Shown here piece after piece: positions 34,023 through 40,127 of a DNA stretch of 64,000 nucleotides. The notes under the pieces were generated by a model, which saw only the letters and a program-made list of their open reading frames with translations, was not told the origin of the DNA and did no database searches. Origin of the DNA: Actinomycetota bacterium (GTDB lineage Bacteria > Actinomycetota > Actinomycetes > Nanopelagicales > Nanopelagicaceae); assembly GCA_003569265.1 (NCBI GenBank), contig BGON01000001.1:1-64000 (forward strand). The letters are read 5' to 3'. Within the stretch, counting starts at the first letter, position 1. Every line of letters starts with the position of its first letter. The position numbers and the translations under genes were made by a program.

Positions 34023-34056
34023 AAAAAAACCCGCCACATATAGTGGCGGGTTTTTT
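34023..34056. terminator. Bidirectional rho-independent terminator
   Basis: ACCCGCCAC/GTGGCGGGT forms a perfect stem around ATATA, flanked by an A run on one side and six T on the other. It serves the convergent marR and histone-like genes. Confidence 0.9.
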
Positions 34057-34065
34057 AATTGCTAA

Positions 34066-34407
34066 TTACTTAGCTGCTGCCTTCTTACGACGGCGCTTCT
34101 TTGGAGCAGCTGCTGCTGCCTTCTTACGACGACGCTTTGGAGCAGCCTTCTTTGCGGCTGCCTTCTTACGACGACGCTTTGGAGCAGCCTTCTTTGCGGC
34201 TGCCTTCTTACGACGACGCTTTGGAGCAGCCTTCTTTGCTGCTGCCTTCTTACGACGACGCTTTGGAGCAGCCTTCTTTGCTGCTGCCTTCTTGCGGCGC
34301 TTCTTTGGAGCAGCTGCTGCTGCCTTCTTACGGCGCTTCTTTGGAGCTGCTGGAGCAGCTGCCTTCTTACGGCGCTTCTTTGGTGCTGCTTTCTTTGCTG
34401 CGGCCAC
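34066..34407 (-). CDS. Histone H1-like Lys/Ala/Arg-rich repetitive protein
   Basis: A 113-residue protein made almost entirely of Ala, Lys, Arg and Pro in repeats of the type A-P-K-R/K-R-R-K-K-A-A-A. The start is GTG at 34407, 6 nt after GGAG. It resembles the basic tail of actinobacterial HU (HupB) and eukaryotic H1 but has no globular HU or other domain. It probably binds DNA or RNA non-specifically and compacts the nucleoid. A strong terminator and a 226-bp very AT-rich upstream region with A and T runs mark it as a single-gene unit. Frames on the other strand here are repeat shadows. Confidence 0.85.
   Translation of the reverse strand: MAAAKKAAPKKRRKKAAAPAAPKKRRKKAAAAAPKKRRKKAAAKKAAPKRRRKKAAAKKAAPKRRRKKAAAKKAAPKRRRKKAAAKKAAPKRRRKKAAAAAPKKRRRKKAAAK
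34119..34286 (-). repeat. Four tandem 42-bp repeats inside the histone-like gene
   Basis: The block CCTTCTTACGACGACG recurs at 34119, 34161, 34203 and 34245, an exact 42-bp period encoding 14-residue units. Flanking units are diverged. Copy number could vary by slippage or recombination. Confidence 0.85.
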
Positions 34408-34633
34408 GTACTTCTCCTATCGGAATGGTTCGGATCCGTCACCCAAACCTTTTCGTGGATAAGCGTGACATCATTTAGGTAAAAATGCCATCATATTGTG
34501 GAAATTATTTAGGTGCGTGTCGCACATTCTTTTTAATTATTTTTTATGCATCTACGGAAAATCTCACTAAATAATTAATTTAAAATCAAAAAAAAATCGA
34601 AAAAATATAAAAAAAACGCTAATTTCTCCAAAA

Positions 34634-36824: not shown

Positions 36825-38474
36825 ATGAAGTTGCGCGTGGCGCTAGCCCAAATCAACCCAACGGTTGGTGACCTTGCGGGCAATGCTGGGCTGATAGCGC
36901 AATCTGTAAAGAAGGCCCAAGAAAAGGCCGCCAATCTGATCGTCTTTCCAGAAATGATTGTGACTGGATATCCAGTTGAGGATTTAGCTCTTCGTCCATC
37001 CTTTCAAGCAGCCAGCATCAGAGCTATTGAAGAAATCGCTGCGGCAATCACAGGTGATGTGGTGGCAGTTGTTGGCTACCTAGATAAAGGCCCAAAAAAC
37101 TGCGTCGCAGTTATTCATGATGGAAAAATCAAGGCCAGATATGTCAAGCGCCACCTGCCCAATTACGGCGTCTTTGATGAGTTTAGAAACTTTGTAGCAG
37201 GGGATCAATCCCTGGTTGTTCGAATCCATGGAGTAGATGTTGCCGTTGCAATCTGTGAGGATATTTGGCATTCACTCGACTCGATTGCCGCAAGAACTCC
37301 AGGTCTATTGGTCGTTCCTAATGGATCACCCTTTGAGAGAAACAAAGATGACGTTCGACTAGCTCTTGTGCAAAAGCGGGCCAAGGAAATTGGCGCACCC
37401 GTTGCATACGTCAACATGACAGGTGGCCAGGATGATTTGGTCTTTGATGGCGACACAATTGTTGTTGGCAAAGATGCAAGCCTGCTTGCAAGGACTGCTC
37501 AGTTTGATGATGAGCTCATTGTTATTGATATTGACTGCATCCAAGGATCTTCAAAGCCTGATGTTGTTATTTCTCAAGAACCAGCGGTCCATGCAGATTC
37601 ACTCAAATCTTCAATTGCAACGCCCCTCTCAGATGAGGCAGAAATGTGGGCGGGCCTTGTCATGGGGCTTCGCGACTATGTTGGCAAGAATGGATTTAAA
37701 TCTGTAGTCCTTGGTTTATCTGGTGGCATTGATTCAGCTTTAGTTGCTGCCATTGCAATTGATGCATTAGGTGCAAAACGCGTTAATGGTGTTGCAATGC
37801 CAAGTAAGTATTCCTCTAGCCACTCTGTTGAAGATGCTCAGGGGCTGGCAGATGCCACAGGTATTCACTTCAGGATCACTTCTATTGCCCCCATGGTTGA
37901 TGCCTATATGGCCAACATGGTCCTTAAAGGTTTGGCTGAGGAGAATCTGCAGGCCAGAGTTCGCGGAACCACGTTGATGGGCATATCCAATCAAGAAGGA
38001 CATCTTGTTTTAGCAACTGGAAATAAGAGCGAACTAGCTGTTGGTTACTCAACTCTTTATGGCGATGCCGTTGGAGGATTTGCTCCGATAAAAGATATTT
38101 ATAAAACCGATGTGTGGGCGCTGGCAGCATGGCGAAATGCTCAGGCCGTTGCTTCAGGTCAAACCCCTCCAATTCCAGAGCGCTCTATTACTAAAGAGCC
38201 AAGTGCTGAACTGCGCCCTGATCAAAAGGATTCAGATTCTCTGCCTGACTATGCGTTACTAGATCAGATCCTTCGAGCCTATGTTGATGAAGATCATGGC
38301 TACCACGTCTTACTTGCAGATGGCTTTGATCCTGAACTAGTGCGCCGTGTTATTTCATTAGTTGATAAGGCTGAATATAAGCGCCGCCAATATCCACCTG
38401 GAACTAAAGTCTCAGGCCGTGCCTTTGGTAAGGATCGTCGCTTGCCAATGACATCACGCTGGAACGAGCACTAG
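36825..38474 (+). CDS. nadE: Glutamine-dependent NAD+ synthetase
   Basis: A 549-residue two-domain enzyme. The N-terminal nitrilase-type glutaminase has the Glu (VFPEMIVTGYP), Lys (YVKRHLPNYGVFDE) and Cys (VAICEDIWH) triad. The C-terminal synthetase has the P-loop LSGGIDSALVA near residue 298 and a late KSELAVGYSTLYGDAVGG block. It amidates nicotinate adenine dinucleotide with glutamine-derived ammonia. TACACT lies 6 nt before the ATG with no Shine-Dalgarno, so it is probably leaderless. Confidence 0.95.
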   Translation: MKLRVALAQINPTVGDLAGNAGLIAQSVKKAQEKAANLIVFPEMIVTGYPVEDLALRPSFQAASIRAIEEIAAAITGDVVAVVGYLDKGPKNCVAVIHDGKIKARYVKRHLPNYGVFDEFRNFVAGDQSLVVRIHGVDVAVAICEDIWHSLDSIAARTPGLLVVPNGSPFERNKDDVRLALVQKRAKEIGAPVAYVNMTGGQDDLVFDGDTIVVGKDASLLARTAQFDDELIVIDIDCIQGSSKPDVVISQEPAVHADSLKSSIATPLSDEAEMWAGLVMGLRDYVGKNGFKSVVLGLSGGIDSALVAAIAIDALGAKRVNGVAMPSKYSSSHSVEDAQGLADATGIHFRITSIAPMVDAYMANMVLKGLAEENLQARVRGTTLMGISNQEGHLVLATGNKSELAVGYSTLYGDAVGGFAPIKDIYKTDVWALAAWRNAQAVASGQTPPIPERSITKEPSAELRPDQKDSDSLPDYALLDQILRAYVDEDHGYHVLLADGFDPELVRRVISLVDKAEYKRRQYPPGTKVSGRAFGKDRRLPMTSRWNEH

Positions 38475-38534
38475 TTTTTGCGACAACTTGCTTAATGCAA
38501 ATCATTGGCAACTCGCACTTTTAATCATTCTCAG

Positions 38535-38540
38535 TAGAAT
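38535..38540 (+). promoter_or_regulatory. -10 element for the cysteine leader/cysK transcript
   Basis: TAGAAT ends 6 nt before the leader-peptide ATG at 38547, placing the expected transcription start at or next to the A of the start codon. Confidence 0.6.
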
Positions 38541-38546
38541 TGAGCT

Positions 38547-38624
38547 ATGAAATCAATCATCAACTGGTTATTCACGCGAAATCGCGTTGTTGATTTCTGC
38601 CTTTCCACATCCTGCAGCTGCTGA
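38547..38624 (+). CDS. Cysteine-rich leader peptide upstream of cysK
   Basis: A 25-codon reading frame starts at an apparent leaderless ATG and ends in ...DFCLSTSCSC then TGA; Cys codons are 18, 23 and 25. The middle NRVVDFC resembles the 'RR/H-V-D' core of short actinobacterial leader peptides found in front of sulfur-metabolism genes. Mycobacteria use leaderless poly-Cys leader ORFs as cysteine-responsive attenuators, so ribosome stalling at the Cys codons when Cys-tRNA is scarce could raise expression of cysK-cysE 60 bp downstream. It was found by reading the gap and is too short for routine gene calling. Confidence 0.7.
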   Translation: MKSIINWLFTRNRVVDFCLSTSCSC

Positions 38625-38684
38625 TTTTCTAGCCCGCTTTACCTGCAGTTTTAGAACATTCATTTTATTTATCTAGGGAGAATT

Positions 38685-39611
38685 ATGACTATTTATAACA
38701 ACATCACAGAAATTTTTGGAAACACACCACTACTGCGCATCAACAAGATTACAGATGGTGCTGCAGGAAATGTCTATGCCAAGCTGGAATTTTATAATCC
38801 AACATCCTCTGTTAAGGATCGCCTCGCTATTGCGATGATCGATGCTGCTGAGGCAAGTGGCGAGCTCAAGCCTGGCGGGACAATTGTTGAGGCAACATCT
38901 GGAAACACAGGAATTGCTGTGGCAATGGTTGCTGCAGCTCGTGGATACAAGTCGATTTTCACAATGCCCGAGTCGGTTTCAAAGGAGCGTCGTAAGCTCA
39001 TTCGTGCCTTTGGTGCAGAACTTGTGTTAACACCAGCAGCCGAAGGTATGAAGGGCGCCGTTGGCGCAGCTGAAAAGCTTGGAGATTCTGGCGCTGTATT
39101 AGTTCGCCAATTTGAAAACGAAGCAGGACCAGAGATTCACTACAAAACAACGGGTGCTGAGATTTGGCGCGATCTTGATGGAAAAGTCGATGCTTTTATT
39201 TCAGGAATTGGCACGGGCGGAACAATTACTGGCACGGGCCGTTACTTAAAAGAGAAAAACCCTGCAATTAAAGTCTTTGGTGTTGAACCCGCTGCATCTC
39301 CAATTCTCAATGGCGGTGAGCCAGGACCACACCCCATTCAGGGAATTGGAGCTAACTTCATTCCTAATGTTTTGGATCGCTCTGTCTATGACGAGATCCT
39401 GGATGCAAATGCGGCAGATGCACTTGAGTATGCACGCCGAGCAGGAGCAGAAGAGGGATTCCTTGCTGGGATTTCATCTGGTGCAACGTTGTGGGCAGCA
39501 TCAGAGATTGCAAAGCGCCGCGAGTTTGCAGGCAAGAACATTGTCGTTATCTGTGCTTCAAATGGTGAGCGCTATCTTTCAACAGTTCTATACGAGGACT
39601 TGGTTGACTAA
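38685..39611 (+). CDS. cysK: Cysteine synthase (O-acetylserine sulfhydrylase)
   Basis: A 308-residue PLP enzyme. The cofactor Lys is in NPTSSVKDRLAIAM (near residue 44), the phosphate/substrate loop is EATSGNTGIAVAM, and GTGGTITGTGRYLK holds the glycine-rich PLP-phosphate cup. It makes cysteine from O-acetylserine and sulfide. AGGGAG precedes the ATG by 5 nt. It is followed after 3 bp by cysE, giving a complete serine-to-cysteine pair in one operon behind a Cys leader. Confidence 0.96.
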   Translation: MTIYNNITEIFGNTPLLRINKITDGAAGNVYAKLEFYNPTSSVKDRLAIAMIDAAEASGELKPGGTIVEATSGNTGIAVAMVAAARGYKSIFTMPESVSKERRKLIRAFGAELVLTPAAEGMKGAVGAAEKLGDSGAVLVRQFENEAGPEIHYKTTGAEIWRDLDGKVDAFISGIGTGGTITGTGRYLKEKNPAIKVFGVEPAASPILNGGEPGPHPIQGIGANFIPNVLDRSVYDEILDANAADALEYARRAGAEEGFLAGISSGATLWAASEIAKRREFAGKNIVVICASNGERYLSTVLYEDLVD

Positions 39612-39614
39612 TTA

Positions 39615-40127
39615 ATGGCAATTCTAAAACGCATCATTGAAGACCTTGATAACGCAATCAGCCATGATCCGGCTGCGCGCAATCGCTTAGAGGTCGCTTT
39701 GGCATACCCAGGTGTGCACGCGATTTGGGGACATCGAATCTCACATTTTCTTTGGAAACGAAAGTTGAAACTTCTTGCACGCATTCACTCAAATGCTGTG
39801 CGCTTCACGACAGGAATTGAGATTCATCCAGCAGCAGTTATTGGGCGTCGATTTTTTATTGATCACGGCATGGGCGTTGTTATTGGTGCAACATCAATTA
39901 TCGGTGATGATGTGATGCTCTATCACGATGTAACTCTGGGAGCCCGCGGTATCGAAAAGGGTAATCGCCATCCCAGGATTGAAAATAATGTAATTATTGG
40001 CGCTGGTGCGCGCGTACTTGGAAATGTGACCATAGGCGAGGGATCGCGTATCAGTGCCAACGCTGTTATTACCAAGGATTTAGCCCCAAGAACCATGCTC
40101 GATCACGCTGACTTCTTTGTCATTTAA
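39615..40127 (+). CDS. cysE: Serine O-acetyltransferase
   Basis: A 170-residue short-form CysE. A helical N-terminus ([29 protein letters not shown]) is followed by a left-handed beta helix of hexapeptide repeats with [32 protein letters not shown] in segments, including the catalytic His residues. It lacks the long N-terminal extension of enteric CysE. It acetylates serine for CysK, which can bind its C-terminus (ending DFFVI, with the terminal Ile typical for cysteine-synthase complex formation). It is co-transcribed with cysK. Confidence 0.95.

Follow-up and report, generated by a model that had tools for sequence, protein, structure and literature searches.

A short open reading frame with three Cys codons lies ahead of cysK in the window, the term used here for the whole 64,000-nucleotide stretch of DNA that was analyzed. 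The frame has 25 codons, encodes the peptide MKSIINWLFTRNRVVDFCLSTSCSC, and ends with a TGA stop at 38622–38624, leaving a spacer of 60 nt before the cysK ATG at 38685. Its Cys residues, at codons 18, 23, and 25, are separated from one another and form no contiguous Cys run. The frame is the first ORF of a cysteine/sulfur operon in which cysK and cysE follow (Table 1). An initial annotation of this DNA had described a TAGAAT followed after 6 nt by an ATG, a 25-codon frame with a terminal Cys cluster 60 bp ahead of cysK, and a downstream cysK-cysE pair. All of these elements were found as claimed, and the identities of the two genes were borne out by the NCBIfam models TIGR01139 and TIGR01172.

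Table 1. Features of the cysK leader region in the window
Feature	Position	Strand	Basis or remark
17-bp palindromic operator-like site ATGCAAATCATTGGCAA (consensus TTGCRARNNNYTYGCAA, 2 mismatches)	38495–38511		35 nt from its end to the leader start
−10 box TAGAAT	38535–38540	+	6 nt from its end to the leader ATG
Leaderless leader ORF, 25 codons, TGA stop (predicted)	38547–38624	+	Frame, conservation, promoter spacing
Small hairpin ACGCG-AAAT-CGCGT within the leader ORF, codons 10–14	38574–38587	+	Pair counts over loci
Predicted anti-SD segment TTCTGCCT, codons 17–19	38595–38602	+	RNAalifold consensus pair and duplex with SD
Cys codon 18 (TGC)	38598–38600	+	Cys in 40/58 aligned cores
Cys codon 23 (TGC)	38613–38615	+	Cys in 51/58 aligned cores
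Cys codon 25 (TGC)	38619–38621	+	Cys in 57/58 aligned cores, all TGC
cysK Shine-Dalgarno (SD) AGGGAGAA	38675–38682	+	Predicted pairing with 38595–38602
cysK, cysteine synthase A	38685–39611	+	NCBIfam TIGR01139, 429.1 bits
cysE, serine O-acetyltransferase; start 3 nt past the cysK stop	39615–40127	+	NCBIfam TIGR01172, 219.7 bits

An Rfam scan of positions 38300–38900 gave a sole match, to a hammerhead model, which was sub-threshold (16.6 bits; gathering score 52). Elsewhere in the window, both strands carry long repetitive frames at positions 34043–34478; that of the minus strand (34066–34407) encodes MAAAKKAAPKKRRKKAAA..., which we take to resemble a Lys/Ala/Arg-rich repeat protein of the histone H1 type.

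Conservation of the leader frame and its promoter

Loci for comparison came from two CysK searches, leader searches, and other searches, and were limited to the 135 with a CysK at least 60% identical and with its N-terminus present; the same genome was often represented more than once. A recognition motif that takes in part of the peptide core (FT/R/D) identified a leader in 113 of these loci, amounting to 67 distinct sequences with the window's own counted, and left 22 without one. The near clade consists of 39 sequences with CysK identity of at least 81%, and the far clade of 28 loci. The leader sequences are mutually related, so that the counts over loci given below are not independent events.

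In the 39 near sequences, the leader frame had a pN/pS of 0.097, compared with 1.66 and 2.75 for the two alternative frames; the numbers of differences at codon positions 1, 2, and 3 stood at 1341:226:5378. Over all 58 leaders that align without gaps, a set that excludes 9 of the 67 leaders because they end one or two residues later, pN/pS was 0.25. The assigned start codons were ATG in 56 leaders and GTG in 11. A Cys was present within the last four residues of all 67 distinct leaders, and the last codon was Cys in 57 of the 58 gap-free ones, always as TGC. The preference for TGC extended to the leader Cys codons as a whole (TGC:TGT of 157:23, and 108:8 in the near loci) compared with 7:15 in cysK, where all 22 codons were from near loci; the leader Cys codons thus seem to be constrained as nucleotides. 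The pattern foreseen in the initial annotation for relatives, with a conserved start, Cys cluster, and stop accompanied by third-position changes, was therefore seen in these 67 loci. Loss or frameshifting of the frame had been named there as evidence against a leader; this held for a few close relatives only (L023/L109, L110, and L054), in which leader and spacer are deleted together.

Among the 22 motif-negative loci, L024 and L049 have a diverged yet open frame that the motif missed, L052 has just 45 nt of upstream sequence, and L023 and L109 are one and the same locus; the remainder include more distant lineages. Within the genus, CysK at more than 80% identity was present in 39 of 101 genomes, the gene being partial in three. 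Many of the other genus genomes show just a 41–45% identical relative, and many genomes are incomplete; loss or replacement of this cysK is only a suggestion.

The promoter spacing was equally regular. A TANNNT hexamer ends 6 nt (48 loci) or 7 nt (16 loci) before the leader start in 64 of the 67 distinct loci. L034, L038, and L050 depart from this spacing; L034 and L050, but not L038, have an in-frame ATG farther upstream that is preceded at six bases by a TANNNT. No SD-like motif was found within 16 nt before the leader start in any of the 67 loci, and an SD precedes cysK in 64. A sigma-70 scan called no plus-strand promoter here; that scan demands a −35 element, and the −10 box is present with no −35 consensus. 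From the promoter spacing, we infer that transcription starts at or beside the leader ATG. The predicted anatomy is that of a leaderless leader followed by a leadered cysK, which supports the leaderless arrangement proposed in the initial annotation.

Short frames are common, and the window contains 1596 ATG- or GTG-started frames of 12–38 amino acids when both strands and nested starts are included. Ten of them have at least three Cys in their last nine residues, and 20 have a TANNNT 6–7 nt before the start. Both properties coincide in a single frame, that of the cysK leader, where about 0.13 would be expected if they were independent. A chance origin is refuted by the 67 distinct loci, the frame-specific pN/pS, and the fixed promoter spacing, and we give it practically no weight; judged by these sequence comparisons, the leader frame is a conserved translated element. 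The strong purifying selection on the peptide would also be expected if the frame encoded a small protein with a function of its own and not a cis-acting sensor. We consider this very improbable, because the product has 25 amino acids, is encoded immediately ahead of sulfur genes in the inspected loci, carries the near-terminal Cys in every leader, and has been lost together with the spacer in some relatives.

Leader RNA folding and the conserved peptide core

The best explanation for the locus, and one that we consider fairly probable, is a leaderless, ribosome-sensed cysteine attenuator that acts by translational attenuation. Because transcription would begin at or beside the leader ATG, a ribosome would load on the 5′ end of the message and translate the leader. 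With sufficient Cys-tRNA, it would reach the leader stop and leave, after which leader codons 17–21 would pair with the cysK SD and keep translation of cysK-cysE low. With Cys-tRNA in short supply, it would stall at Cys codon 18, 23, or 25 and cover the anti-SD segment, and a ribosome held over codons 17–21 would leave the cysK SD free. Both the stalling and the cysteine response of the leader are presumed here.

Pairing between leader and SD was predicted by several methods. RNAalifold analysis of 37 near sequences paired TTCT-CCT (codons 17–19) with AGG-AGAA of the cysK SD, with a weak energy of −3.9 by default scoring and −25.7 with RIBOSUM scoring. In a duplex test, the last 12 leader codons were paired with the SD region and compared with synonymous recodings. 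The near sequences had a mean z of −0.99, with 33 of 39 at or better than the median and 13 in the best tenth; the window itself had a z of −1.19. The far sequences had a mean z of −0.53, with 22 of 28 at or better than the median and 5 in the best tenth.

Access to the SD was then calculated from partition-function folds with a ribosome modelled at Cys 18, 23, or 25 or at the stop. In the near clade, the unpaired fraction of the SD core was 0.24 in free RNA, 0.36–0.39 with the ribosome at Cys codons, and 0.34 with it at the stop; recoded leaders gave 0.30, and the real value was below the recoded one in 26 of 39. The effect was modest in the window itself, where the corresponding values were 0.17 free, 0.30–0.37 stalled, 0.26 at the stop, and 0.27 recoded. 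In the 28 far loci, which have longer spacers, the modelled stall had no effect on SD opening (0.31 free, 0.29–0.31 stalled, and 0.32 recoded, with the real value below the recoded one in 17 of 28). Sequestration of the SD in the far clade is thus unsupported by either the duplexes or the partition-function folds, and these models give modest support, confined to the window's clade, to an SD that is sequestered and freed by a stall. A ribosome on the stop also raises SD access in the near clade; therefore, such a switch would need prompt release.

The in-frame hairpin at codons 10–14 has all 5 pairs in 26 of the 39 near sequences and in 18 of the 28 far ones. Its middle pair, which is synonymous, was a standard pair in 28 of 39 near sequences, compared with a mean of 17.1 and a maximum of 25 in 5000 shuffles. 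In the far clade, the 18 of 28 observed were unexceptional (shuffle mean 13.6, maximum 22); in both clades, the shuffle statistics ignore kinship among the loci. A second hairpin, between the Cys codons and a downstream CTGCAG, appeared in single folds of part of the near clade only and was not relied on.

Classical amino-acid leaders follow another logic, under which the leader ribosome would determine whether transcription ends early, by intrinsic or Rho-dependent termination, or continues into cysK; the title of one M. tuberculosis paper does refer to Rho-shaped premature termination with translated uORFs. However, terminator-like hairpins were found in the spacer of 1 of 67 loci, compared with 1.2 expected from composition shuffles, and the single terminator-like match in the window lies inside the leader ORF, with none in the spacer. 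An intrinsic terminator between leader and cysK, as in a trpL-type transcription attenuator, is thus not enriched, and we regard transcription attenuation of any kind as rather unlikely.

The peptide itself may take part in the response. A core of the form W-x-F-T-R-x-R-V-[VI]-D-F could contact the exit tunnel and make the ribosome pause at the Cys codons near the C-terminus; sensing would then depend on both peptide and Cys-tRNA. Residues W7, F9, T10, R11, D16, and C25 were invariant in 24 leaders picked for diversity, pN/pS is low across the core, and a related core, T-[KR]-R-R-x-[VI]-D-[LFY], is found again ahead of different sulfur genes and in further families of the class. The core is 7–18 residues ahead of Cys 23/25, a distance that would fit the exit tunnel. 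However, the invariance is partly due to selection, because the recognition motif contains FT/R/D; two loci missed by that motif keep an open frame with a variant core (L024, FIHDRIVDF; L049, FTRCRVVDF), and R13 varies in L033, L035, L036, and L068. Because the Cys codons alone do not explain the conservation of the core, a peptide role in the stall can be proposed: the conserved non-Cys core hints that the nascent chain may help to set it. We hold nascent-peptide-assisted arrest as a tentative alternative to attenuation by Cys-tRNA supply and SD pairing.

The upstream palindrome and natural leader deletions

A 17-bp palindrome upstream of the promoter was found, at no more than 2 mismatches from a consensus (TTGCRARNNNYTYGCAA) derived from the same loci, in all 67 distinct cysK-leader loci, whereas shuffled regions (10 each) never came below 3. 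It ends 35–36 nt before the leader start in 63 of them. At the same threshold, and in counts without a shuffle control, it precedes 23 of 23 DUF4395-type and 10 of 17 rhodanese-type leaders, which are described below. Exact matches occurred in 23 of 61 genus genomes, compared with 5 for a reversed-pattern control; there was none in the window's own genome, where the site has 2 mismatches. Inspection of 21 exact-match loci showed that 10 were sulfur-linked, comprising three cysK leaders, four DUF4395 loci, and three like the Cys/Met PLP enzyme of L244, and that 11 were not, many of these being inside long frames. Loci with the palindrome were noted at 38495–38511 of the window and in L243, L244, L247, L251, L296, L297, L299, L306, and L308. 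It is possible that the palindrome is a sulfur-regulon operator, and a putative common sulfur regulator likely acts beside the leaders.

Natural deletions separate the two elements. In L023/L109, L110, and L054, neither leader nor spacer remains beside the retained promoter, whose −10 box ends 6–7 nt before the cysK ATG, so that cysK itself looks leaderless there. The palindrome persists where the leader has been lost. No leader match at an E value of 0.01 was obtained in the L110 genome (G040). A similar situation was seen at the DUF4395 operon: G067 (L242) keeps the palindrome without a leader, the related G097 (L243) has a leader, and in G049 the palindrome is directly ahead of DUF4395 (L308). 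Because three loci with the same promoter are without it, the leader is evidently dispensable; by comparison of these loci, it is a removable module.

The presence of the palindrome at every cysK leader, its retention where the leader is lost, and its occurrence before other sulfur genes would also be expected if a regulator bound there mainly controlled the operon and the leader were a small correction. The strong long-term selection on the leader peptide argues against so minor a role, and we think this explanation unlikely; joint control by a palindrome regulator and the leader is possible.

Other arrangements were seen ahead of cysK in some loci. In L057 and L076, cysK appears leaderless, with TAAACT or TAAAAT six bases before the ATG, and no leader peptide was found. 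In L073 and L078 (Trueperella), the short frame ahead of cysK is a different one, rich in Met and Cys (MNMMTAMMCCCMCL in L073), with a GGTGGCA...TGCCACC inverted repeat after it; this frame looks like an independent leader.

Paralogous leaders and known leader families

With an alignment of 24 leaders as the query, a match at an E value of 0.01 was obtained in 76 of 101 genus genomes. No leader besides that of cysK was found in the genome of the window, which is 42% complete. Forty of the non-cysK matches were taken for inspection of their neighborhoods. Seventeen of these leaders (e.g., MFTKRRVIDFCRVNTSAC) precede the same type of rhodanese gene, by inspection, with a transporter-like gene next where the stretch is long enough. 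The other 23 are of the type MFRIETSYFTKRRVLDYGRLAGSMCRA; a DUF4395-like gene is next in 21, and in L195 and L207 the sequence stops short of a next gene. In several loci of this type, rhodanese and SseC genes follow the DUF4395-like gene. Pfam analysis of one representative each gave Rhodanese and Sulf_transp for L172, and DUF4395, Rhodanese, and DUF1416 for L184. The leader of the DUF4395-rhodanese-SseC operon looks like the counterpart of that at the mycobacterial cysA2/Ms5788A locus. New here are the paralogous leaders before rhodanese/sulfur-transport and DUF4395-rhodanese-SseC operons, along with the shared 17-bp palindrome, the natural clean leader deletions, and the conserved non-Cys core.

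A relationship to catalogued leaders was found at the profile level. When the 24 lineage leaders were compared by hhalign with 13 class leaders, chosen from matches over the cut-off of NF042933 (leader_Ms5788A) in other families of the class, the probability was 94.6 with an E value of 6.6e-8 over 20 columns, at low Neff. In an NCBIfam scan at E values up to 10, leader_Ms5788A matched 10 of the 24 (best 4.9e-5), leader_Ms4527A 5 (best 0.015), and cis_reg_atten 4 (best 7.9e-5). The window peptide had no NCBIfam match at E values up to 10 and no Pfam family; Pfam gave one irrelevant match among the 24 leaders (CHZ, E value 0.082). An L040-type cysK leader scored 15.6 bits against NF042933, whose curated cut-off is 45 bits. 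The existing NCBIfam models thus miss part of the leader family. At E values up to 1, leader_Ms5788A matched in 276 of 296 class genomes, 39 of them over the cut-off, and also in 6 of 14 control genomes, always below the cut-off; because of these control matches, only the strong matches count. The profile homology upholds the likeness to mycobacterial Cys-rich leaders drawn in the initial annotation, and the window peptide looks like a distant cousin of the mycobacterial leaders that tune sulfur genes to cysteine supply.

A broader proposal, which is speculative, is that the lineage leaders and the Ms5788A-type leaders of the class form one ancient arrest-peptide family. The chain (W-x-)[FL]-T-[RK]-[RN]-R-x-[VI]-D-[FLY] would prime a pause at the terminal Cys codons, and cysteine would be sensed by peptide plus tRNA. 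In the window's lineage, this sensor would be combined, operon by operon, with a regulator at the shared 17-bp operator, and the leader could be cleanly deleted to give a leaderless gene with the operator only.

The initial annotation had presented the locus as mycobacterial logic carried into a distant, genome-reduced lineage and applied to the core cysteine operon. The position before cysK-cysE stood. In a sample of the class, 28 cysK-like loci were kept, of which two belong to the window's family, both with a leader. The other 26 were 44–66% identical, including six at 44–45% that are probably paralogues, and an RR-x-VD frame with Cys was found within 350 nt upstream in three of these 26 (L222, L228, and L232). 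The L232 leader was closest to NCBIfam leader_Rv2334A, at a sub-threshold E value of 0.39. A class search with that model at E values up to 0.5 matched 59 of 246 genomes and 5 of 14 controls, with one match over the cut-off (L264); L264 and L265, the latter below the cut-off, were the two strongest. In both, a 460-aa thioester-domain (TED) gene lies between the Rv2334A-type Cys leader and cysK. The L232 leader is directly before a CysK close to PDB 3zei/2q3b, and the CysK proteins of L232 and L227 (from the L265 genome) are very close to 3zei/2q3b and 3rr2. We take these entries to be mycobacterial cysteine synthases, and Rv2334 and 3zei/2q3b to be M. tuberculosis CysK1; the genomes of L232, L264, and L265 are called mycobacteria-like because the CysK proteins of L232 and L227 are near those entries. 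A Cys leader at a cysK operon is therefore already catalogued, in the Rv2334A family and by its position in these three mycobacteria-like genomes, and the window is not the first such case. Nor is its lineage an isolated one, because Ms5788A-type leaders are spread over the class. Rv2334A was ruled out as the family of the window leader: its model matched none of the 24 lineage leaders at E values up to 10, and nothing in the window's genome at E values up to 0.5.

Polycysteine leaderless short ORFs of mycobacteria, and an attenuation mechanism for them, were reportedly described by Canestrari et al. in 2020. Complete genomes of the genus are about 1.3–1.5 Mb, and our analysis would extend a regulatory mechanism known from mycobacteria to this small-genomed lineage, which suggests that ribosome-based sensors are retained in a reduced sulfur regulon. 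It also identifies a peptide core conserved beyond what the Cys codons alone explain. A literature search that covered the lineage and cysK leaders narrowly found no paper on the cysK leader of this lineage and none naming the catalogued Rv2334A-type cysK leader. Among the sources found, each taken from the part of its text available, one describes leaderless uORFs rich in Cys ahead of cysA2, Rv0485, and nirA, for which it proposes attenuation by cysteine (PMC4633059), and another places M. smegmatis cysteine genes under translation attenuation, citing Canestrari 2020 (PMC13236596). A third treats six predicted regulatory Cys-rich sORFs (PMC9094748), and the available part of a fourth gives eight leader peptides of Streptomyces lividans and calls none of them cysteine-dependent (PMC8079986).

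In the available text on the uORFC-8-2 motif before cysS in Rhodobacterales (PMC8632094), a uORF with Cys codons is likewise proposed to sense Cys-tRNA; that motif, likened here by description only, differs in belonging to another phylum and in having tandem Cys codons and an intrinsic terminator in its model. The cis_reg_atten family (NF042934) shares with the lineage a short RR-x-VD-L leader and matches some lineage leaders as given above, whereas the window peptide has no match and an L040-type leader scores 18.4 against a cut-off of 27. The Rv2334A family (NF042939) is alike in that a Cys-rich leader stands near cysK, ahead of the gene or its operon, and in having RR-x-AVD or a similar core ahead of the Cys cluster, whereas its model fails to match any of the 24 lineage leaders. 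The Ms5788A family (NF042933), like the window, has a short ORF that ends in Cys codons and stands first in a sulfur operon, and shares the common core T-[KR]-R-R-x-[VI]-D-[LFY] with the lineage leaders. In contrast, the window leader precedes cysK-cysE, has separated Cys codons rather than a Cys run, has an extra conserved Trp-x-Phe, and encodes a peptide that the model does not detect. We conclude that the leader is real and conserved and belongs to a known kind of regulator, of which a parallel at cysK is already catalogued.
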